From NCBI GenBank assembly GCA_945872795.1, contig CAMCAZ010000004.1:1-64000 (forward strand): DNA of 64,000 nt, read 5' to 3'. Shown piece after piece: positions 6,628 through 26,743 of the stretch. The notes below the pieces were generated by a model. The model worked only from the letters and a program-made list of their open reading frames with translations. It was not told the origin of the DNA and did not search any database. The stretch is from Chryseobacterium gleum (GTDB taxonomy: Bacteria > Bacteroidota > Bacteroidia > Flavobacteriales_F > PHOS-HE28). The position numbers and the translations under genes were made by a program. Position 1 is the stretch's first letter, and every line of letters begins with the position of its first letter.

Positions 6628-7707
6628 TCACCGCCCCCTTTCGGCCATCTCCGCCGCCCGTTCCGCATAGAACCCTCCGCCTGCGGCGATGCTGGCGAAG
6701 GCCTCCTGTGCGGCCTGGCGCTCGCCGGCGCGCTGAAGCGTGAGAGCGTGGTACCAGGTGGCCTCCTCATCGAAGGCGTCCACGGGGTGTGTGGCGACGC
6801 GGTGCAGGAAGCTGCGGGCACGATCATAGAGGCCCAGGTTGTAGGCGCAGAGCCCGGCGTAGAACAGGGCGTTCACATCATCGGGGTACTGGGTGAGGAG
6901 GAAGCGCAGCTCGGCAAGGGCCTCCTTGTGGTGGGCGCGGGCGAAGTGGGCCATGGCCTCATCCAGGTAGGCGGTATAGAGCATGTGCTGCTCGGAGCCC
7001 TGGGCCTGTCGCTGCTGGTCGTGATCGGCGAAGCGCGCGTCCACGCCACCGGGCTCCACCTCAAGCAGGGGTTCCCGGGCATAGAGGGCGCGGGGGTGCA
7101 CCACCTTGAGGTCGTGCAGGTAGAGCAGCTGGTGCACGGCACGCGCGGCACGCGCCGGCGCAGGGGTGCTGGTGGGGGCGATGAGCTGGGCGGTATCCGG
7201 CCGGCGGTCGGCGAGGGGTTGCACGTCCGTGCTGCGGTCCACGGGTGCGGCGTGGCGCTCGTCGCTGCGGTGCCCGATCTGTTCGGTGGCCGGTAGTTCA
7301 CGCGCTTGGCTGATCTCCGCGATGGCCAGTGGTCCTTCCTCGATGATCTCGGTGGGTGCCGCGTCCGGCTGGGCCACGCTGGTGGGAGTGGTGGGTGCGT
7401 TGTTCGGCCGGGGTACAGCGCTGGGCCAGAGGGCGATGGCGAGCGCGGCAAGCAGCACCGAGCCACCGACCCAGAGCGAGGCCCGGCCACCAGCGCCGGG
7501 GCGTTGGCGCTGCAGGGCGCTCCAGCCCGTAGTGGCCTGGGGGTGCTGCAGTCCCTCCAGGGCATCGCGCAGCAAGGGGTCGCTCTCCAAGGCGCGCTCC
7601 ACGGCGTTGTGCTCGGCGGGCGGCAGGCGTCCTTCGGCATAGGCCTGCAACTGGGCGGGCGTCGGCCGGGCTGGGGCAAAGGGGCTATCGGGGAAAGGGG
7701 TGGCCAT
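6628..7707 (-). CDS. Anti-sigma-factor-like membrane protein with TPR region
   Basis: This is a 359-residue protein. The N-terminal 60 residues (QAYAEGRLPPAEHNAVERAL ... DPLLRDALEGL) resemble the cytosolic sigma-binding segment of Bacteroidota anti-sigma factors. One transmembrane helix follows at about 77-95 (LWVGGSVLLAALAIALW), then a Pro/Thr-rich linker. The C-terminal 150 residues contain TPR-like helices (AMAHFARAHHKEALAELRFLL, DVNALFYAGLCAYNLGLYDRA) that would sit in the periplasm. The gene begins 3 bases after the ECF sigma gene and is surely co-transcribed, so it probably holds that sigma factor at the membrane. No zinc-binding HxxxCxxC motif is visible. A signal for the TPR part is not known. 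Confidence 0.7.
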   Translation of the reverse strand: MATPFPDSPFAPARPTPAQLQAYAEGRLPPAEHNAVERALESDPLLRDALEGLQHPQATTGWSALQRQRPGAGGRASLWVGGSVLLAALAIALWPSAVPRPNNAPTTPTSVAQPDAAPTEIIEEGPLAIAEISQARELPATEQIGHRSDERHAAPVDRSTDVQPLADRRPDTAQLIAPTSTPAPARAARAVHQLLYLHDLKVVHPRALYAREPLLEVEPGGVDARFADHDQQRQAQGSEQHMLYTAYLDEAMAHFARAHHKEALAELRFLLTQYPDDVNALFYAGLCAYNLGLYDRARSFLHRVATHPVDAFDEEATWYHALTLQRAGERQAAQEAFASIAAGGGFYAERAAEMAERGR

Positions 7708-7710
7708 GGT

Positions 7711-8271
7711 TCAGGCAGTATTACGCAAGCGTTCCAGGTGGAGCTTCAGGTTGCGCCGCCCGTTCTGCAGGTGGCTGCGCACCTGTTCCACGGAAAGGCC
7801 GGTGCGTTCCGCGCATTGGTGGTAGCTGTAGTGTTCCAGGTAGAACAGGCGTATGCAGCTGCGCTGGGCCTCGTTGAGCAGTTGCAGGGCCTGTTCCAAT
7901 TGTTGCAGGCTGCTCTCCAGCAGCACGGCCTCGCCGGCATCGTCCTCCACACTGAGATGCTCGCTGAGCGGGCTGTGGTGCCCCTTGTCGCTGCGCAGGG
8001 CCATGAGGCAGCGGTTGCGCATCACCGTGTGCACCCAGGGGCGGAAGCGCTGCACGGGCTGTTTGGCCAGCAGTCCGGGCAGTGCGGTGAAGAGCTCCAC
8101 CACCAGGTCCTTGCTGCGTTCGCTGTCCCTGAGGTACTTGAGGCCCACGCCATAGAGCAGTTGCGCATAACGGTCCCAGAGGTCCCCCAATGCGGAACGG
8201 TGACCGCTGCACAGGGCGGTCACCAATTCCTCATCGCTTGCGGCGACGCTTTGTTTCCGGCGCAGGAACAC
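7711..8271 (-). CDS. RNA polymerase sigma factor, ECF (sigma-70) family
   Basis: This 186-residue protein starts at GTG (8271). Region 2 is seen at DLWDRYAQLLYGVGLKYLRD ... FRPWVHTVMRNRC, and region 4 with its helix-turn-helix at RSCIRLFYLEHYSYHQCAERTGLSVEQVRSHLQNG. The length is usual for an ECF sigma. It directs core RNA polymerase to specific promoters and is probably controlled by the membrane protein encoded 3 bases downstream. A barrel-less plug protein is encoded 12 bases upstream in the same direction, hinting at control from the envelope. The target promoters cannot be read from this window. Confidence 0.9.
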   Translation of the reverse strand: MFLRRKQSVAASDEELVTALCSGHRSALGDLWDRYAQLLYGVGLKYLRDSERSKDLVVELFTALPGLLAKQPVQRFRPWVHTVMRNRCLMALRSDKGHHSPLSEHLSVEDDAGEAVLLESSLQQLEQALQLLNEAQRSCIRLFYLEHYSYHQCAERTGLSVEQVRSHLQNGRRNLKLHLERLRNTA

Positions 8272-8283
8272 CTGTGGTGGGGT

Positions 8284-9009
8284 TTAGCGCAGCCCGGCCT
8301 GGTGCTGCATGTAGAGGTCAAAGTAGCTCTTCGTTTCGATGGCCACCACACCGCCGGTGACATCGCCGTAGCGGGCGGGCAGTCCGCCGGTGTACATGGT
8401 GATGCTCGCGATGCCGGCGGGAGGCACTCCGCTCAGGCCGTCAGTGACCTTCACACCGTCCACGTAGTAGGCCATGGCATCGGAGCGGGAGCCGCGGAAA
8501 TAGAGCTCGTCGCTGTTGGGTGACTTGTAGATGTCCGGAGAGGTGCTCGCGATCAGGGCCACGGGGTTCTTGCGCTGGGGGTTGTCCTCGAACTGCGCGG
8601 CGATGATGGTGAGCTTGCTGGGCTCTTCGGGGTCGATCAAGGGTGGTTCCCAGCGACGGCCGATGACGGTATGGATGGGCAGGGTGTTGTTGGCCAGGAG
8701 CACTTCCCCTTTCAGGAAGGTGATCTTATCCGGGTTCACCTGCACGCCGGTGATCTCCTTGGTGAGCAGCCCCACGAAGGAGATGCGCACGGTGTAGGTG
8801 CCGGGGACGAGGGGCTTGAGGATGAAGCGTCCGCGATCATCGGTGGTGGTGCCGATGAGCCCATCGCCGCGGTCGGTGACGACGTTGGCGTAGGGGAGGG
8901 GCTCGCCTTGTTCGTCCAGCACACTGCCCTGGATCTCGCCCAGGTTCTGTCCGGCGGCGATCGTGCTGCTGAGCAGCGCGATCGCCAGAAGGGGAATGGA
9001 AGTTCGCAT
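8284..9009 (-). CDS. Carboxypeptidase-regulatory-like plus TonB plug protein without a barrel
   Basis: From the ATG at 9009 the product is 241 residues. A signal peptide (MRTSIPLLAIALLSSTIAAGQ) precedes a carboxypeptidase-regulatory-like fold (IQGSVLDEQGEPLPYANV ... PGTYTVRISFVG) and then a plug-like region (SNSDELYFRGSRSDAMAY-type motif, YYVDGVKV, ITMYTGGLPARYGDVTGGVV). The reading frame then stops, where a SusC/TonB receptor would continue into a 600-residue beta barrel. Downstream sequence is the sigma gene, so the barrel has not merely been frameshifted. It is first in a three-gene operon with an ECF sigma factor and anti-sigma candidate, and could be a periplasmic partner in signalling. 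Function unknown. Confidence 0.7.
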   Translation of the reverse strand: MRTSIPLLAIALLSSTIAAGQNLGEIQGSVLDEQGEPLPYANVVTDRGDGLIGTTTDDRGRFILKPLVPGTYTVRISFVGLLTKEITGVQVNPDKITFLKGEVLLANNTLPIHTVIGRRWEPPLIDPEEPSKLTIIAAQFEDNPQRKNPVALIASTSPDIYKSPNSDELYFRGSRSDAMAYYVDGVKVTDGLSGVPPAGIASITMYTGGLPARYGDVTGGVVAIETKSYFDLYMQHQAGLR

Positions 9010-9099
9010 GTTCGTTCGTTTGGAAGGAAGATGCAGTGCCGAGCCGAATTGCACACGGCTGTTCATTTCTGCCCCGGACGGGGCCGCGCATCCGCGATC

Positions 9100-19205: not shown

Positions 19206-20057
19206 TCAGCGCTTTCGCTTCATCCAATTGTACTGTTCGTCACAATCGGAGAAGCGGCTGATGATATAGGTGATGGTCAGCCCCGAGTAGCTGTACCAGT
19301 CGCGTGTATTGCTGTCGCCGCGCGCACGCAGGGCGTTGGAGAAGCCCGGGATGGCCTGCTCCAGCCCGCTTCGGTCGGCCAGGCTCGCGGCCAGGGGGCC
19401 GTTCTCGAAGGCCAGCAGGTCATTGTCCACGTATACCCCGCTCACGTCGTCGATGTAGTCGGTGTACGTGCGCCGGATGCCCCATTCCGCCTGGATGTCT
19501 ACCCGCCCCAGGTTCACCTTGATGCCCGCACCGACAGGGATGCAGATCTGGTCCAGGTTGTAGGCTTCCTTGCTCCCGGTGGCCGTGGTGCCCTGGCCCT
19601 CCGTGCCCAAGGGTTGCAGGTCGTACCAGGTATCGTCCAGCTGGGCTTTGGGGTTGGTGCGGAAATAGGCCAGCCCGCCGAACACGAAGGGTGTCCAGTT
19701 CTTGCCGTCCTTCCCCTTTTTGCGGTACTTGAAGAAGTTGATCTCCAGCAGCATGGACACCTCGATGACCTTGGTGGTGAAATGCAGGTTCCGGGTCAGT
19801 TGCAAGGTGTCCTGGGAATCACTGTCGTAGGCCTGCAGGGTCCCGTACAGTCCTTGGAAACGAAGCGCATAACGGTCGTTGAAGTTGTGGCGGAAGACCA
19901 GCCCGCCAGCCAGTTTGGTATCCCGTGGGTAGTGCTTCGTGGGATTGAGGTCGCCGATGTAGTAGGAAGCCCCGATGGTTCCACCGATCTCGTTGACCTG
20001 CGCGCACAGCAGCAGACCCCAAGGGAGCAGAAGCAGTGTGAAGAGAATGCGCACCAT
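19206..20057 (-). CDS. DUF6089 family outer-membrane protein
   Basis: The 283-residue protein has a signal peptide (ILFTLLLLPWGLLLCAQ) and a beta-barrel-like sequence beginning EIGGTIGASYYIGDLNPTKHY, which is characteristic of DUF6089. It ends with a basic NWMKRKR tail after the final strand. It lies 30 bases upstream of uppS in the conserved envelope block, which suggests a role near outer-membrane biogenesis, but no function is established to my knowledge. Its own promoter was not found. Confidence 0.85.
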   Translation of the reverse strand: MVRILFTLLLLPWGLLLCAQVNEIGGTIGASYYIGDLNPTKHYPRDTKLAGGLVFRHNFNDRYALRFQGLYGTLQAYDSDSQDTLQLTRNLHFTTKVIEVSMLLEINFFKYRKKGKDGKNWTPFVFGGLAYFRTNPKAQLDDTWYDLQPLGTEGQGTTATGSKEAYNLDQICIPVGAGIKVNLGRVDIQAEWGIRRTYTDYIDDVSGVYVDNDLLAFENGPLAASLADRSGLEQAIPGFSNALRARGDSNTRDWYSYSGLTITYIISRFSDCDEQYNWMKRKR

Positions 20058-20206: not shown

Positions 20207-23200
20207 TCAGGGCAATTGTGCCGCCCGTTGCGCGGTGGGCAGCAGGCCACCGATGGTGACCAGCACCTTGTCCCGGTCATTCCCGGCGCCGCCATATTTC
20301 ACCCACCCGTCCAGGTCCACATCCGTTTGCAGGTAGCCGCTGACCACGCTCGTGGGGATGGTGCCGCCAATGCTCACCAGGATAGGGTCGCGGTCGTTGT
20401 TCGCCCCTGCATAGCGGACCGCACCATCCCGCGCAGTGTCGCCCGCCCACAGCATCATCCGGCCGTCCTGAAAGGCCTGCGCCTCTGTGCCGAATGTGGC
20501 GGTAGGTACCAGGCTGAGGTCAAGGGTCACGGTCCCCGTGTTGAACGCGAGCGGGGAGGCGCTCATCACCCCCAGGTGGTTCCGGTGGCGCAGGGCCACC
20601 TGGTAGGTCGGCCTGTTCACCGTGACCGTCACGGGCGAGACCCCGTCCATACCCACGATGTCCCCATCGCGTTGGATCAGGCCCACGGCGGTATGCAGTA
20701 TCGTGGCAGGTGTGTTCGGGTCGCGCAGCTCGATAAGTACCCAGTCGACCACGGCATTGGGCCCGGAGACCGCGAAAACGCCGGGGTTCCGAGTGCTGCC
20801 GGAGCCTCCGAGCATCGTGAAGCCGGCCGCGGTGTAGGGCTCTGAGGTGGGTAGCAGACCGGCCGTACGAAGCTGGTCCGTCATCAACTGGTCCGTTGAC
20901 CGGTACGGTCCCTGGAGCAGGGCACGCAGGGCGAGGCTCACCACTCGTTCGCAGGCGTATTGCAGAGGCCCATTGGTGGCACTGAAGGCGGGGTCCGCGG
21001 CTTCGGGGAAGAGTGACCCACCATTTATCCCCTGGATGGTGTTGGGGCCCAGGTCCTGGGCCACCTGCTCTCCGGCTTCCTGGTCAAAGCGCCAGTAGCC
21101 CTGCAGGCCCGGGCTGCCCGGGTCTATGCTGTTGGTGTGCGCCGCCAGGATCTGTACGCCGCTCCGGGCCACGTTCCAGATCCGCAGTTCATCCATCCCC
21201 CCGGCATAACGTCCGCTGAAGAAACCCCGGCCCAGGTATTTCACCGTGAGGTTACCGCTGTAGGGGACCGAACTGGCCGCGGCATCCAGCACACCGTTCA
21301 CGTAGATGGAAAGAGCCGAGCCATTACGGACCACCGCATAGTGGTTCCACTGGTTGGCGTTCACGACCACGGACGAGGTGATGCGGGTGCCCGAACGGTA
21401 CAGGCGCAATCGCCCGCCCTCCAGGTCCAATGAGAGGTCCGTGTCGTTGCCCAGGATGGCGTCTGCGGCGGAGAGGCCTGGCAGGGGGCGCTGCCAGAAT
21501 TCAATGGTCCAGTTCCCGCTCAGCGTGAAGGGAGAGAAGCGCACTTCGTCATCCACGCCATCGAAGGACAGGAACTGACCGCAGGATCCACAGGGCCCGT
21601 TGGGTACAAAGGCGGCGTTCACCGACGCGTTGTTGGCCGGCACCACATACCCGTGGATCAAGGGCAGACCATCGCTCCAGGCGTCGAAGGAATAGCCGTT
21701 CCCGGCCTTGCACTGTTGGCCGTTCGCCAGTGCCAATTGCATCTCGTAGCCGATCGCCTGGTCCACCAGGTAGGGGGTGAGCACCGGCAATCCCTCCACC
21801 AACACCTCCAGGCCCGGGGGCGTGCTGGTGATGGTCACGTTCACCTTTTCGGGATAGATCTGCACGCTTGTGCTGGCCTGCAGGCCGTCCTGGTCGGTGA
21901 CGGTGAGGGTTATGGTATAGTAGGTGTTCCCCGTATAGCCGTGCCCCGTGGTGGGGATGATCAGGTCGAACGAGCTTGTGCCCGTGGCACCGGTCTCGGG
22001 GTGGATGTGCTGGTCGTGGTTGAACACCACGCTCCAACTGTAGCTCGCCTCGCTCAGCGCATCGTCGTCCGTCCCGGCGCCTTCGAAGGTGATGACCTCG
22101 CCGCCGCGGAACAGGGAGCCGGTGCCGGGGGAGAGGATCTGGGCCGTGGGCGGGGTCCCAATGTAGATCTCGACCGTCCCGCAATTGATGCTGGAGTTGC
22201 CGTCGGAGACCACCACTTGCGGGAAGAACGTGCCAGGGGTGCTGTAAGTGTGCTGCACCGTGGCACCCGTGCCGTCCGGTGTGCCATCACCGAAGGTCCA
22301 GGTGTAGGTCAACGGATCGTTCTCGGCATCCACGGCCGTGGCGCTGAGCGTGGTGGTGAGCGTGGGGCCGGGTCCATCTGAAGGAGTGGCCTGCACCGTC
22401 CCGCACGTGGGGGATTGGTTCGCGGAATAGAAAATGCGATGCACGGCGCCGGTATAGGTCACCTGCTCGGAGACCAGGTCGATGTAGTACAAGGCACCGT
22501 CAGGCCCCTGGAGCAGCTTCACCGGCGAAAGCGGATAGACCCCTCCGACCTGTGCATCCAGGAAGGGTTGGTCGCCGGTGACCGTTCCGTTCGCATCGAA
22601 GGTGAGGTAGCGGATGGATCCGCGCGCGTAGTCCCCGTAGAGGTAGCGTCCCTGCCAGGCCGCCGGGAACATGCTGCCCGTGTAGGTGAAGCCCGCCGTG
22701 ATCGATGCGCCGGCACCCGCATGCGGGTAGGTGAACACCGGGTCGCTGTACAAGGGGTCCAGGCAGGCACCGCTTGGTGTGCGCCCACCATCGCCGCAGA
22801 ACGGCCAGCCGTAGTTCGCTGCCGGTGCGCCCACATGAAGGTCCTCCCAAGCGATGTTATGGTCATTGCCACCCACCTCGCCGATGAGGAAGGTGCCGGT
22901 GGCCGCATGGTACGATGCCCGGAACGGATTGCGCAGGCCTGATGCGTAGATGGTCTTCAGCACCCCGTTGGCGTTCAAGGGTCCAGGTGTGTTGTCGAAA
23001 TAGGGGTTGTCCGTTGGCGTGGTGCCCGTGCTGCTGAAGCGATGCACCTTGCCGTAGGGGGAGGAGAGGTTCTGGGCCAGTGCGGGCGTAAAATCATCGC
23101 CCACGGCAAGCAGGATGTGGCCATCGTTCGCGAAGGCCATGCCGCCCCCGATGTGGCAGCAACTGTTGAAGGGGGCCGAGGTCTCGAAGATCACGGTCTC

Positions 23201-23626
23201 GCTGGCCAGCAGGGCTGTGTTGCCCGTGTGAATGAAGCGCGAGACCCGGTTCCTGTTCTGCTGCGTGCTGTAGTACACGTACAGGTAATTGTTCGTGGCG
23301 AATCCCGGGTCCACCAGGATCTCCATCAGGCCATGCTCACCGCTGTTGTTCACGTTCTGCAACTGCAGGTAGACCGTGGCCGTTACCGGGCGCTGGTCCA
23401 TGGGCGTGGTGATGTGGATGGTGCCTTGCAGCGTGGTGATAAGCATTCGTCCATCGGGCAGGAAGGCGCCGGAGGAGGGAAGGCCGAATCCTTCGATGAG
23501 CAGCTCATGTTGGAAGGGAGCAGGCTGCGCCTGGGCACGTCCTGCACCGAGGAGGAACGAGCACAACAGCAGCGCCGACCGAACAAGCGGACCGGTACCT
23601 CGGAGGGGTGCAGGGGGGCGGGTCAT
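20207..23626 (-). CDS. Large secreted sugar-dehydrogenase-like/PKD/LamG protein with C-terminal repeat domain
   Basis: From the ATG at 23626 the product is 1139 residues with a signal peptide (SALLLCSFLLGAGRAQAQ). Residues about 35-410 look like a glucose/sorbosone-dehydrogenase-type beta propeller (GFGLPSSGAFLPDGRMLITT, GEHGLMEILVDPGF, YASGLRNPFRASY, NYGWPFCGDGG). Then come PKD-like domains (DPLTYTWTFGDGTPDGTG), a LamG-like sandwich (WTIEFWQRPLPG ... GGMDELRIWNVARSG), and a C-terminus with two similar units (VRYAGANNDRDPILVSIGG; VKYGGAGNDRDKVLVTIGG), each after a DxxxDG-like loop. There is no standard FPNP-type T9SS sorting domain. It interrupts an otherwise conserved gene block. Substrate unknown; PQQ binding is possible but unproven. 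Confidence 0.8.
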   Translation of the reverse strand: MTRPPAPLRGTGPLVRSALLLCSFLLGAGRAQAQPAPFQHELLIEGFGLPSSGAFLPDGRMLITTLQGTIHITTPMDQRPVTATVYLQLQNVNNSGEHGLMEILVDPGFATNNYLYVYYSTQQNRNRVSRFIHTGNTALLASETVIFETSAPFNSCCHIGGGMAFANDGHILLAVGDDFTPALAQNLSSPYGKVHRFSSTGTTPTDNPYFDNTPGPLNANGVLKTIYASGLRNPFRASYHAATGTFLIGEVGGNDHNIAWEDLHVGAPAANYGWPFCGDGGRTPSGACLDPLYSDPVFTYPHAGAGASITAGFTYTGSMFPAAWQGRYLYGDYARGSIRYLTFDANGTVTGDQPFLDAQVGGVYPLSPVKLLQGPDGALYYIDLVSEQVTYTGAVHRIFYSANQSPTCGTVQATPSDGPGPTLTTTLSATAVDAENDPLTYTWTFGDGTPDGTGATVQHTYSTPGTFFPQVVVSDGNSSINCGTVEIYIGTPPTAQILSPGTGSLFRGGEVITFEGAGTDDDALSEASYSWSVVFNHDQHIHPETGATGTSSFDLIIPTTGHGYTGNTYYTITLTVTDQDGLQASTSVQIYPEKVNVTITSTPPGLEVLVEGLPVLTPYLVDQAIGYEMQLALANGQQCKAGNGYSFDAWSDGLPLIHGYVVPANNASVNAAFVPNGPCGSCGQFLSFDGVDDEVRFSPFTLSGNWTIEFWQRPLPGLSAADAILGNDTDLSLDLEGGRLRLYRSGTRITSSVVVNANQWNHYAVVRNGSALSIYVNGVLDAAASSVPYSGNLTVKYLGRGFFSGRYAGGMDELRIWNVARSGVQILAAHTNSIDPGSPGLQGYWRFDQEAGEQVAQDLGPNTIQGINGGSLFPEAADPAFSATNGPLQYACERVVSLALRALLQGPYRSTDQLMTDQLRTAGLLPTSEPYTAAGFTMLGGSGSTRNPGVFAVSGPNAVVDWVLIELRDPNTPATILHTAVGLIQRDGDIVGMDGVSPVTVTVNRPTYQVALRHRNHLGVMSASPLAFNTGTVTLDLSLVPTATFGTEAQAFQDGRMMLWAGDTARDGAVRYAGANNDRDPILVSIGGTIPTSVVSGYLQTDVDLDGWVKYGGAGNDRDKVLVTIGGLLPTAQRAAQLP

Positions 23627-23677: not shown

Positions 23678-23685
23678 CAAATTTA
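23678..23685 (-). promoter_or_regulatory. TAnnTTTG -7 box for the sugar-dehydrogenase-like gene
   Basis: The minus strand reads TAAATTTG, 51 bases before the ATG at 23626, in the AT-richer gap after nadK. This suggests the large gene has its own promoter, not read-through from nadK alone. Confidence 0.5.
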
Positions 23686-23765: not shown

Positions 23766-24653
23766 TTATCGCAACCCACTGCTCCGTTGATCCAGACCCC
23801 AATGGAGCTTGGTGCGCAGGGTATGCAGGAAGTCCTGGTCCTCCAGCTGCACCATCTTCACGGTGAACGGTGCCCGTCGGATGGTCACCTGGCTGTCACC
23901 CTCCACGGTCACGCTGCGCGAGTCGAGGTTGAGCAGGCACTTGTCGCTGCGGGCCTCCAGTTGCAGGCGGATGGTGAAATGGTCGGGCACCACGAAGGGC
24001 CTGACGTTCAGGTTGTGCGGGGAGATGGGGTTGATGACCAGGGCATCGCTGGTGGGGTAGAGGATCGGTCCGCCGCAGCTCAGGGAGTAGGCCGTGGAGC
24101 CGGTGGGGGTGGCGATGATCAGGCCGTCCGCCCAGTAGGTGTTCAGGTAGTCCGCACCCAGGTGCACGTGCACGGCGATCATACTCGCGCTGTCCCGCTT
24201 GCTGATGCTCACCTCGTTCAGCGCGAAGTTGTGGGCACCCAGTTCGTCGGCATGGTCGATGACCTCCAGCAGCGATCGGTCCTGCAGGGAGTAGCGGCCC
24301 GAACGAAGGTCGGCCAGGGCGCCATCCACATCCTCCAGGCGTACGTTGGAGAGGAAACCCAAGCGGCCCAGGTTGATGCCCAGGATCGGGATGCCGGTAC
24401 GACCCACCAGCGCCACGGTGTCCAGCAGTGTGCCATCGCCCCCCAGGCCGATGAAGAGGTCCAGGTCCTGAGAGCTCAATAATTCAGTTGCCAGGATCGG
24501 GAACTTCATCGCGACGCCCTTGCGGATCAGCCATTCGGCGAGGCCGCTGGTCAGCTGCGGCTCCATCCCCTGACGGACCATGCGCTGGAGGACGTCGAGC
24601 ACCAAGGGGATGTTCTCGTCGGCCATCTCCCGGCCGTTAACGCCCACGCGCAT
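23766..24653 (-). CDS. nadK: NAD kinase
   Basis: The 295-residue protein contains the NAD kinase signature GLGGDGTLLDT (GGDGT at 71-75), then ILGINLGRLGFLSN and the NAD-binding DGLIIATPTGSTAYSLS. It phosphorylates NAD to NADP with ATP in the cytosol. It starts 3 bases after the end of the Omp85-like gene and belongs to the leftward block that begins with the CBS protein. N-terminal MRVGVNGRE is as expected for the family, so the start is secure. Confidence 0.96.
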   Translation of the reverse strand: MRVGVNGREMADENIPLVLDVLQRMVRQGMEPQLTSGLAEWLIRKGVAMKFPILATELLSSQDLDLFIGLGGDGTLLDTVALVGRTGIPILGINLGRLGFLSNVRLEDVDGALADLRSGRYSLQDRSLLEVIDHADELGAHNFALNEVSISKRDSASMIAVHVHLGADYLNTYWADGLIIATPTGSTAYSLSCGGPILYPTSDALVINPISPHNLNVRPFVVPDHFTIRLQLEARSDKCLLNLDSRSVTVEGDSQVTIRRAPFTVKMVQLEDQDFLHTLRTKLHWGLDQRSSGLR

Positions 24654-24656
24654 GCT

Positions 24657-26066
24657 TCAAAAGGGTTGAGTGAAATGTAGGAAGAATCCGTGCTCACCCA
24701 AGGCGTTGAGGGTGTATTCGCCGCGCACCACCTGATCGTAGCTCGTCACCAGGTCAAGCCCGAGCCCGTATCCGCTGAGCCATTGGTCGTTCAGGCTGTT
24801 GGAGGCGCTGTAACGGCTGTCCCACACCCGGCCCACGTCGGCGAAGAGGTCCAGATAGAGGGCCATGTGCAGTGTCCGGAAGGCTTCCATGGGGATGGCC
24901 TCCATGCGGTAGTTGCGCGGCTTGAAGAGTGTGAACACCACGTTGCCCTTGGCCAAAGCGTAGTGCTCTCCATCCGCCACGTAGTACTCGTAGCCGCGCA
25001 CCTGGGCACTGTAGCCCAGCCCTTCCTGCACAAAATAGGGCGGCAAGCCCTGGGTGACCTTGCCGCGCAGGGAGAGGGCGAGCGTCAGGCGGTCGTGTAC
25101 TGGCCACCAGCGTTTGGCGGTGGCATAGGCCGTGGTGATGTCCGGTTCGGCGGTACCCAGAACACCCAGGCCCAGCCTGTCCAGACGCAGTTCGGCATAG
25201 TGCCCGGAGCGTGGGAAGACGCGGACATCACGCCGGTCCCAGATCAGGGTGTAGCCCAGGCTCAGGAAGCGGGTCCGGGTGTTCGCGCCGTCGAAATAGT
25301 CGGTGGCGACCTGCACGATGGTGTCCTGGACCTCGGCCTGGTTGAAGCTCATCCGCCAGGCATGGCGAACGTCATGGTTCCGGCGCAGGGTCACCTCCAG
25401 GTCGCCCCACCATTCATCGCGGTTGCTGCCGTCCGGGTTGCTCACCAAGATCCGTTTGTTGTCCACCGTGCCTGCCGTTATCTCGGCCTGCTGCTCATAC
25501 CCTCCACCGATGCTGAAGCCCCATTTCTGGGACTTGTCCAGGTAGGGCACCTTGTAGCGCAGCGCCACTTGTTTGGTGTAGCCGAACTGGGCCTTGGCGT
25601 AGATGGTCTCGTTCTGCCCGCGGAAGTTGTACTGGTAAAGGTAGAGCCCATAGTTCACGCGGCTCAGGTCCTTGGTGAGCCACCAGGTATTGAAGTTCGG
25701 GTCGGCCAGGTCGAACACGATGGCCGGCCACAGGTACCATCGTTCGTTCACCACCACTTCCACGATCACTGTGCGCATGTCCAGGAACAAGGGCAAGAGG
25801 TCAACCGTGTTGAAGAGACCGGTGTTCATCAGGTTCTGGCGGCTCCGTTCCAGGCGTTCATAGAAGGCCGCAGTGCCCAGGCTGTCGCCCTCCTGCACCA
25901 ACAGCTCCCGGAGGATGATGCGGTCACGCGTGACCTTGTTGCCCGAAAGGGTGATCCCCACCACCCGCAGATCCTGCGCAGGGGCCGGGACAGTGTCCTG
26001 CGCCGATGCGCCGACAAAGCCCGTGATCCACAGTAGAAGCAGGAAGGAACGGCGCGCCAGGCTCAT
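24657..26066 (-). CDS. Omp85/BamA-TamA family outer-membrane protein with a single POTRA
   Basis: From the ATG at 26066 the product is 469 residues. A GTG at 26084, overlapping the CBS gene's stop (GTGA), is an alternative start. After a signal peptide ([16 protein letters not shown]) there is one POTRA-like domain ([22 protein letters not shown] ... [13 protein letters not shown]) and a beta barrel running to the C-terminal Phe ([13 protein letters not shown]). The loop-6 motif is AQVRGYEYY. It is shorter than BamA (one POTRA, not five). Located between a CBS protein and nadK, it may act in assembly or secretion at the outer membrane, with substrate unknown. Confidence 0.85.
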
Positions 26067-26080
26067 GCCGTGCGGCTGGT

Positions 26081-26743
26081 TCACAGGTTGATGAAGCGCA
26101 TCAGCTCATCGTACCGTCCACGCAGGTCATCGTGGAAGCGCGAGCCCTGGTAGGTGGACTTCACGAAGTACTCATAGCGCTCGAAGGACTGCAGGATGTC
26201 GCTGATGTCCTCGCGGTTGATCTTCAGCGTCACCTCCACGCGCGTGCTGTCCGGAAGCGTGTGGGTGTAAACGCTGAGCACCTTGCCGCCGTTGCCTTCC
26301 ACGATGCGTGCGATGGCTTGCAGGCTGTAGTCCACCTGGTTCAACTCCAGCACCACGATGCTGCCGACCTCATGGATGTTGGTGATCTCCGCCAGCCGGT
26401 GCAGGGCCTCATGCTCGGTGATGCTGCCGAGGTAGCGGCCCATATCGTCCAGCACGGGCACCACCGTGAGCCCGCGCTCGCTGAAGAGCTTCATCACCTC
26501 ATAGATGTGCTGCCCGCCCCGTGCAAATGCGATCTCCACCTGTTCCATCGCCTCGCCCACTGTGGCCCGCGGATCGTTGCGGTCCACCAGGTCCTGGTCC
26601 TTCACCATGCCCACCAGGCGCTGGTCCTCCACCACCGGCAGATGGCTCACCTTGAACTCCTCCATCCAATCCAAGGCGCGGCCCACCTCGTCCTGTGGAC
26701 GCAGCGGTGGGATGTCGGCGGTGATCAGGTCTATGGCGTGCAT
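26081..26743 (-). CDS. CBS-domain protein (paired CBS plus ACT-like tail)
   Basis: The 220-residue protein has two CBS motifs, about residues 1-60 ([20 protein letters not shown] ... [11 protein letters not shown]) and 65-125 ([28 protein letters not shown]). An ACT-like region follows ([25 protein letters not shown]). CBS pairs bind adenine nucleotides and regulate partners. This is the first gene of the leftward block and is coupled to the Omp85-like gene. A divergent promoter region of 75 bases separates it from pdxJ. Its partner is unknown. Confidence 0.88.

Follow-up and report, generated by a model that had tools for sequence, protein, structure and literature searches.

The 64,000-nucleotide stretch analysed here (the window: positions 1 to 64,000 of contig CAMCAZ010000004.1, Chryseobacterium gleum assembly GCA_945872795.1) encodes a putatively secreted protein of 1139 residues which ends in a module of about 245 residues. 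In its predicted fold and, through its relatives, in its sequence profile, this module resembles the X-dockerins. By sequence comparison it is a third abundant kind of C-terminal tail in this lineage, which bears the type IX secretion system (T9SS), and it replaces T9SS-type tails within the glucose/sorbosone dehydrogenase (GSDH), M36 peptidase and choice-of-anchor families. On balance we favour, with moderate confidence, the reading that the module is dockerin-derived, replaces the T9SS type A tail as a C-terminal address or anchor and binds a surface receptor.

The C-terminal module and its distribution

The last ~250 residues of the 1139-residue protein matched no Pfam or NCBIfam model. Earlier, a sequence-only reading had singled out two C-terminal units as a possible alternative sorting, anchoring or calcium-binding domain. 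Both units were found, each after an Asp-rich loop (GDTARDGA and DVDLDGW). Their C-terminal placement was borne out, but they form only the last third of the ~245-residue module, in which an X-module-like part is followed by a dockerin-like part.

With the last 250 residues as the query, 16 matches were obtained in the own genome: the window copy, 11 further full-length copies, two truncated copies and two remnants of 27–41 residues. The 11 other full-length copies were 43–55% identical to the window copy, and all of these, the window copy included, ended within one residue of each other. A chance repeat or a repeat artefact was ruled out by the 11 further full-length copies in the same genome. 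The truncated copies, L027 (contig C67, 7946–8371) and L028 (C16, 15010–15450), had no N-terminal protein, and the one on C67 contained an internal TAG. The remnants, L029 (C19, 33939–34061, minus strand) and L030 (C6, 25035–25115, plus strand), comprised the module end only and were 85% identical over 60 bp. The C19 remnant follows a type A-tailed gene at a distance of ~120 bp, as might result from tail exchange.

Relatives were searched for in a collection of 84,980 species and the best 80 of at least 535 loci were analysed; the taxonomic spread of this set is not representative. As the sequence-only reading had supposed, the module was C-terminal in 80 of 80 loci, and no copy in the middle of a protein was seen among them. 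The same stop position, with nothing after the last module residue, was shared by 78 of the 80, and the last two residues were LP in 72. Among the 29 loci from other Bacteroidota genomes, 26 stopped soon after the second repeat and three (L034, L040 and L056) ran ~27–80 residues beyond it. Two repeats were visible in 28 of these 29; in L040, which was read in part, the match is interrupted by a stop.

Within the genus, the module was detected in 45 of 45 genomes (own genome included) with 4–46 matches each (median 14; 808 in total, including fragments). The corresponding figures for a sample of the phylum were 51 of 395 Bacteroidota genomes (own included) and 42 of 171 genera. The plasmid search with the module resulted in no match.

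The proteins N-terminal to the module were diverse and included GSDH, M12B and M36 peptidases, beta-propellers, PKD, MAM, lysyl oxidase and peptidyl-arginine deiminase. According to our own crude rule for signal peptides, signal-peptide-like N-termini were present in 67 of 82 module open reading frames (ORFs), compared with 164 of 373 neighbouring ORFs and 20 of 82 shuffled sequences.

Resemblance to X-dockerins and the search for a cohesin partner

The AlphaFold2 model of the module was computed from 78 sequences (77 of the 80 loci and the window), which were also the basis of a genus-only profile. The model reached a predicted local distance difference test score (pLDDT) of 95.2 and a predicted template modelling score (pTM) of 0.91. 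In the VIA alignment of the model, the top eight rows were all X-dockerin-bearing chains with Z of 8.6–10.0, the next row having Z of 5.5. In the top rows 144–150 residues were aligned with a root-mean-square deviation of 3.7–4.0 over the model span 4–250.

The corresponding profile search was conducted with 29 modules, 26 from other genomes and three from the own lineage; L034, L040 and L056 were left out of the 29 other-genome loci. This profile gave 25 matches among PDB sequences at E ≤ 10. The best match was 2b59_B (E 0.0011), the X-dockerin of a cellulosomal scaffoldin, with the matching stretch running from the X-module end through the dockerin, and the next one was 2vn5_B (E 0.0014). 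By their names, 13 of the 25 were dockerin, cellulosomal or scaffoldin entries, 10 were cellulases, xylanases or similar enzymes, which we take to be cellulosomal, and two were serine proteases.

The window protein had no match with Pfam Dockerin_1 (gathering score 22.9). Scores of 17–21 bits, below the cut-off, were determined for three relatives' genes: 19.4 and 17.4 bits in two of 10 modules, 21.1 and 17.4 bits in two of eight proteins, one gene being common to both sets. The F-hand loop consists of 12 residues, D-x-N/D-x-D/S-G-x-I/V-x-x-x-D. Among the 29 aligned modules both loops had the standard 12-residue spacing in 18 and both carried an insert in 11 (window included), while an insert in one loop only occurred in 0 of 29. 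A further alignment covered 58 of the 80 loci and the window. In L036, L046 and the own-lineage modules the inserts vary by lineage yet match between both repeats of one protein, as if the two repeats of a protein evolved in concert. The term dockerin-like is preferred here to membership in Dockerin_1, because the Dockerin_1 scores are below the cut-off, the loops carry inserts and the link comes through relatives.

Several results weigh against a dockerin origin and against an anchor of this kind. Best Z values of 7–8 are typical of models without a clear relative, and the Z of 10 obtained here is only moderately above them. The Foldseek search of the module model gave no match below 1e-3; ranks 1 and 2 were occupied by an unrelated pollen protein, and X-dockerins appeared from rank 3 with E values of 0.02–0.5. 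For a separate model of the 85-residue dockerin half (pLDDT 86), no dockerin was detected by Foldseek and no VIA row with Z ≥ 2 was obtained. The genus-only profile had no match among PDB sequences. Counted up to the Asp in the conserved Asn-Asp-Arg, the loops of the window protein are 16 residues long instead of 12.

The outcome of the partner search belongs on the same side. Canonical dockerins bind cohesins. The cohesin model PF00963 had no match in the own genome at E ≤ 0.1 and none in the 45 genomes of the genus (own included) at E ≤ 0.01, and in the own genome the profile of 16 Bacteroidota cohesin domains picked up nothing beyond a chance match (E 1.83, 31 residues). In the phylum sample cohesins were detected in 127 of 395 genomes at E ≤ 1e-3, namely in 33 of 51 module-positive and 94 of 344 module-negative genomes (Fisher p 5e-7, pooled). 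This co-occurrence was rejected as evidence, the Mantel-Haenszel odds ratio being 1.0 over 16 families (1.2 over 15); the family tally was made by hand and covered 45 of the 51 module-positive and 103 of the 344 module-negative genomes, with single-genome families left out. Around the 80 module loci there was no recurrent neighbour gene marking a partner. The largest neighbour cluster was present at 7 of the 80, and its longest member ends in a tail that looks type A-like by eye. A cellulosome was considered and rejected, as a cohesin scaffoldin was found neither in the own genome nor in the genus. Noncellulosomal dockerins were reportedly the subject of Peer et al. in 2009.

Exchange with T9SS tails and the possible role of the module

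No standard sorting domain was recognised on the window protein, in agreement with the sequence-only reading: TIGR04183 (type A) and TIGR04131 (type B) gave no match at E ≤ 1. The comparison was extended to 51 full-length module proteins, i.e. those of the 80 loci with closed 5' ends and within a residue limit (50) and the window protein, and 0 of 51 matched either model at 1e-3. The proposed exclusivity with T9SS domains thus held for types A and B in the set compared. The possibility that a type A or B tail was overlooked through the threshold was considered and rejected. None of the NCBIfam models for T9SS C-terminal domains (CTDs) matched the window protein, the presence of a type C model in that library not being established. 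The own genome had 119 TIGR04183 matches (150 of 171 candidates scored) and 32 TIGR04131 matches above the cut-offs, at least two of the former overlapping the latter.

The replacement of T9SS-type tails was traced in three kinds of families. Four module-bearing M36 peptidases scored 771–784 bits with the NCBIfam family of T9SS-dependent M36 peptidases (cut-off 885), and were thus below membership; the best of the two matching stretches ended at profile positions 777–808 of 869, and the protein end was formed by the module. NCBI choice-of-anchor families are those whose members bear differing C-terminal anchors. Two module proteins were above the cut-off for choice_anch_B (406 and 410 against 100 bits) and two for choice_anch_J (48 and 49 against 30 bits).

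A homologue of the window GSDH domain was present in 43 of 58 genomes, the own genome among them. From 52 ORFs with a GSDH hit, nine same-tail duplicates were dropped and seven that were cut off at the 3' end were excluded, leaving 36 with a complete 3' end. The module formed the end of 15 of these, and the other 21 had tails that were labelled type A-like by eye; when seven of these tails were scanned, two passed TIGR04183, two were below its cut-off and three had no match at E ≤ 0.1. In the GSDH tree, a quick one with long branches flagged, at least two tail changes were forced by well-supported branches.

The preferred reading of the module as a dockerin-derived anchor can be detailed as follows. 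The C-terminal ~245 residues would serve as an address or anchor module, in which an X-module-like beta domain packs against two EF-hand-like (F-hand) repeats and the second repeat closes the protein. Some secreted proteins would bear the module in place of the T9SS type A tail and, through its binding to a surface receptor, would be kept on the cell surface, much as scaffoldins are attached to cellulosome-forming cells by X-dockerins. Cohesin domains of proteins delivered by the T9SS may act as the receptor in some other Bacteroidota; no cohesin is recognisable in this genus, so that the receptor here would be a diverged cohesin or something else. We infer calcium binding, from the loops only, as well as receptor binding and the surface location of the module proteins. 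The probabilities that we attach to this reading and to the alternatives below overlap and should not be taken as exclusive shares.

It is possible, and suggested here tentatively, that docking is independent of cohesins. The X-dockerin fold would then have turned, in Bacteroidota, into a C-terminal address tag with up to 46 matches per genome, which competes with the type A tail for the same enzymes and is read by an outer-membrane or T9SS-linked receptor.

We regard it as unlikely that the module acts as a sorting signal for the T9SS in its own right. It would then be an additional CTD class next to A, B and C, and the translocon or a PorV/PorP-like shuttle would recognise it and export the protein. 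This reading is favoured by the C-terminal position with a conserved last tripeptide, by the lack of a type A or B tail in all 51 proteins compared and by the exchange with T9SS-type tails among GSDH proteins and M36 peptidases. The distribution of T9SS components also speaks for it: none of the module-positive Bacteroidota sampled was an organism without T9SS, as SprA was detected in 51 of 51 of them (252 of 344 module-negative genomes), and each of the 39 genomes in the relatives search, the own genome among them, had a match to the PorG model, above the cut-off in 35. The co-occurrence of module and SprA is weak, however, because 165 of the 171 sampled genera have SprA and only six lack it. 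A link between the module and any one T9SS component was not found, and its predicted fold is X-module plus dockerin, whereas type A CTDs are, in the available text of PMC11285876, an Ig-like 3+4 sandwich.

Somewhat more doubtful still is a true cohesin-dockerin pair whose cohesin has diverged too far in this genus to be detected, which would be a special case of the dockerin-derived anchor. It is favoured by the presence of cohesin and module together in three genomes (G078, G353 and G014) and by the scaffoldin with cohesins and a T9SS CTD that is proposed for Cloacimonadota in the available text of PMC8542988. Against it stand the 0 of 45 genomes of the genus with PF00963 at the threshold given above and the lack of association between cohesin and module within families.

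The arrangements in these three genomes were chosen after the fact and are suggestive. In G078 (L154, contig C14, 148–2508) a 787-residue protein has two cohesin domains (84 bits) and an X-dockerin-like module at its end. In G353 (L155, C23, ~7056–9047) a 274-residue cohesin protein, the tail of which looks type A-like by eye, is encoded directly upstream of a 386-residue module protein. The N-terminal part of the latter resembles the upstream cohesin (28% identity) and has no Pfam cohesin match; as judged from these sequences, the pair is possibly a minimal cohesin-dockerin set. In G014 cohesin proteins have type A-like tails (by eye), and a distance of 1.7 kb separates one cohesin match from a module.

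It is improbable that the module is a calcium-binding domain for stability or adhesion, C-terminal by chance and with no sorting or anchoring role: the loops are EF-hand-like and many extracellular calcium-binding repeats are purely structural, but 80 of 80 loci are C-terminal with a conserved exact end, and members of one family may end either in the module or in a sorting tail of a known kind.

Gene, neighbourhood and known systems

The ORF is intact, its 1139 residues being counted from the ATG, and its features are listed in Table 1. The GSDH domain was assigned at the level of the family by its PF07995 score. A promoter of its own, as claimed by the sequence-only reading, is plausible for the gene, since TAAATTTG, a putative Bacteroidota -7-like promoter motif, is situated shortly before the ATG.

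Table 1. Positions in the window of the module-bearing gene, its parts and two adjacent genes.
Feature	Coordinates	Strand	Basis
Whole gene, putative secreted GSDH-PKD-PKD-LamG protein with C-terminal X-dockerin-like module, 1139 residues	20207–23626	-	ORF, Pfam
Putative signal peptide, residues 1–33	23528–23626	-	crude rule; cleavage site by eye
GSDH domain, residues 50–382	22481–23479	-	PF07995, 167.8 bits (cut-off 25)
PKD domain, residues 418–485	22172–22375	-	PF18911, 62.7 bits
Second PKD-like domain, residues 512–590	21857–22093	-	PF22352, 34.1 bits
Laminin_G_3 domain, residues 689–826	21149–21562	-	PF13385, 73.9 bits
X-module-like beta domain, residues ~894–1054, motifs DWVLIELR and RHRNHL	20465–20947	-	alignment, AlphaFold2 model, fold match
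Dockerin-like repeat 1, residues 1061–1092, loop DTARDGAVRYAGANND with four-residue insert	20351–20446	-	alignment
Dockerin-like repeat 2, residues 1100–1131, loop DVDLDGWVKYGGAGND with four-residue insert	20234–20329	-	alignment
Conserved C-terminal QLP directly before the stop	20210–20218	-	end comparison, 80 loci
Putative Bacteroidota -7-like promoter motif TAAATTTG, 51 nt 5' of the ATG	23678–23685	-	likeness to the consensus
PorG, T9SS component (DUF6089 of the sequence-only reading)	19206–20057	-	NF052316, 165.2 bits (cut-off 130)
NAD kinase	23766–24653	-	PF20143, PF01513

The remaining neighbours are UppS and a POTRA-bearing (BamA-type) protein. The module gene had been thought to interrupt a usually contiguous block of nadK, DUF6089, uppS and bamA. 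For the comparison, 22 other same-genus genomes were searched, 17 of which provided a PorG locus. The order of uppS and bamA after PorG was retained in 17 of 17 loci, but the position of nadK varied: it was directly upstream in eight, further upstream in two and not seen in the flank in seven, two of the seven being at a contig edge. The insertion between nadK and porG is unremarkable, because this junction is variable within the genus. Beside the PorG of the window, three weaker matches of the PorG model were detected in the own genome (contigs C18, C52 and C57), and in several relatives PorG-like genes are arranged in tandem. A second Omp85-superfamily protein with a POTRA repeat (475 residues; window 24657–26084, minus strand) is encoded between NAD kinase and a CBS-domain protein.

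The module is alike to the type II X-module-dockerin (XDoc; 2b59, 3kcp, 5g5d, 4u3s) in the order of a beta domain and two EF-hand-like repeats, and both the best VIA fold match and the best PDB profile match (2b59_B) were obtained with this group. It differs by its occurrence in Bacteroidota on peptidases, dehydrogenases and propellers and, in the present lineage, by the four-residue loop inserts, no cohesin detected in the genus and scores below the Dockerin_1 cut-off. With the T9SS type A domain (TIGR04183/PF18962) it has in common the C-terminal place, many clients per genome and the same enzyme families, whereas it lacks a match to that profile, has ~245 residues against the 72 positions of the model and is predicted to have another fold.

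The T9SS type C CTD, the C-terminus of ChiA, is described in the available text of PMC10202324 as ~100 residues long and needed for efficient secretion of green fluorescent protein (GFP). Both it and the present module are further C-terminal classes; no NCBIfam match links the two, and they are set apart by description, not by direct comparison. In the cellulosome-like complex of Ca. Stygibacter (Cloacimonadota), as proposed in the available text of PMC8542988, signal-peptide enzymes have C-terminal dockerins, as do the proteins studied here, and the scaffoldin is said to be attached to the surface by a CTD. That complex includes a cohesin scaffoldin, and none was found in this genus; the likeness is by description, not by dockerin sequence.

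No description of the module was found by title or abstract among open-licence papers, which is not proof of its being unpublished. Dockerins and T9SS tails are both known; new is a dockerin-like module that alternates with T9SS tails in a genus with no visible cohesin. Among the proteins marked by the module are peptidases, dehydrogenases and propeller proteins to which annotation would otherwise assign neither a known route nor a known anchor. Two questions are thereby made testable: by what means Bacteroidota exoproteins that lack a recognised T9SS tail pass the outer membrane and are retained on it, and what a dockerin-like module binds where cohesin is absent.

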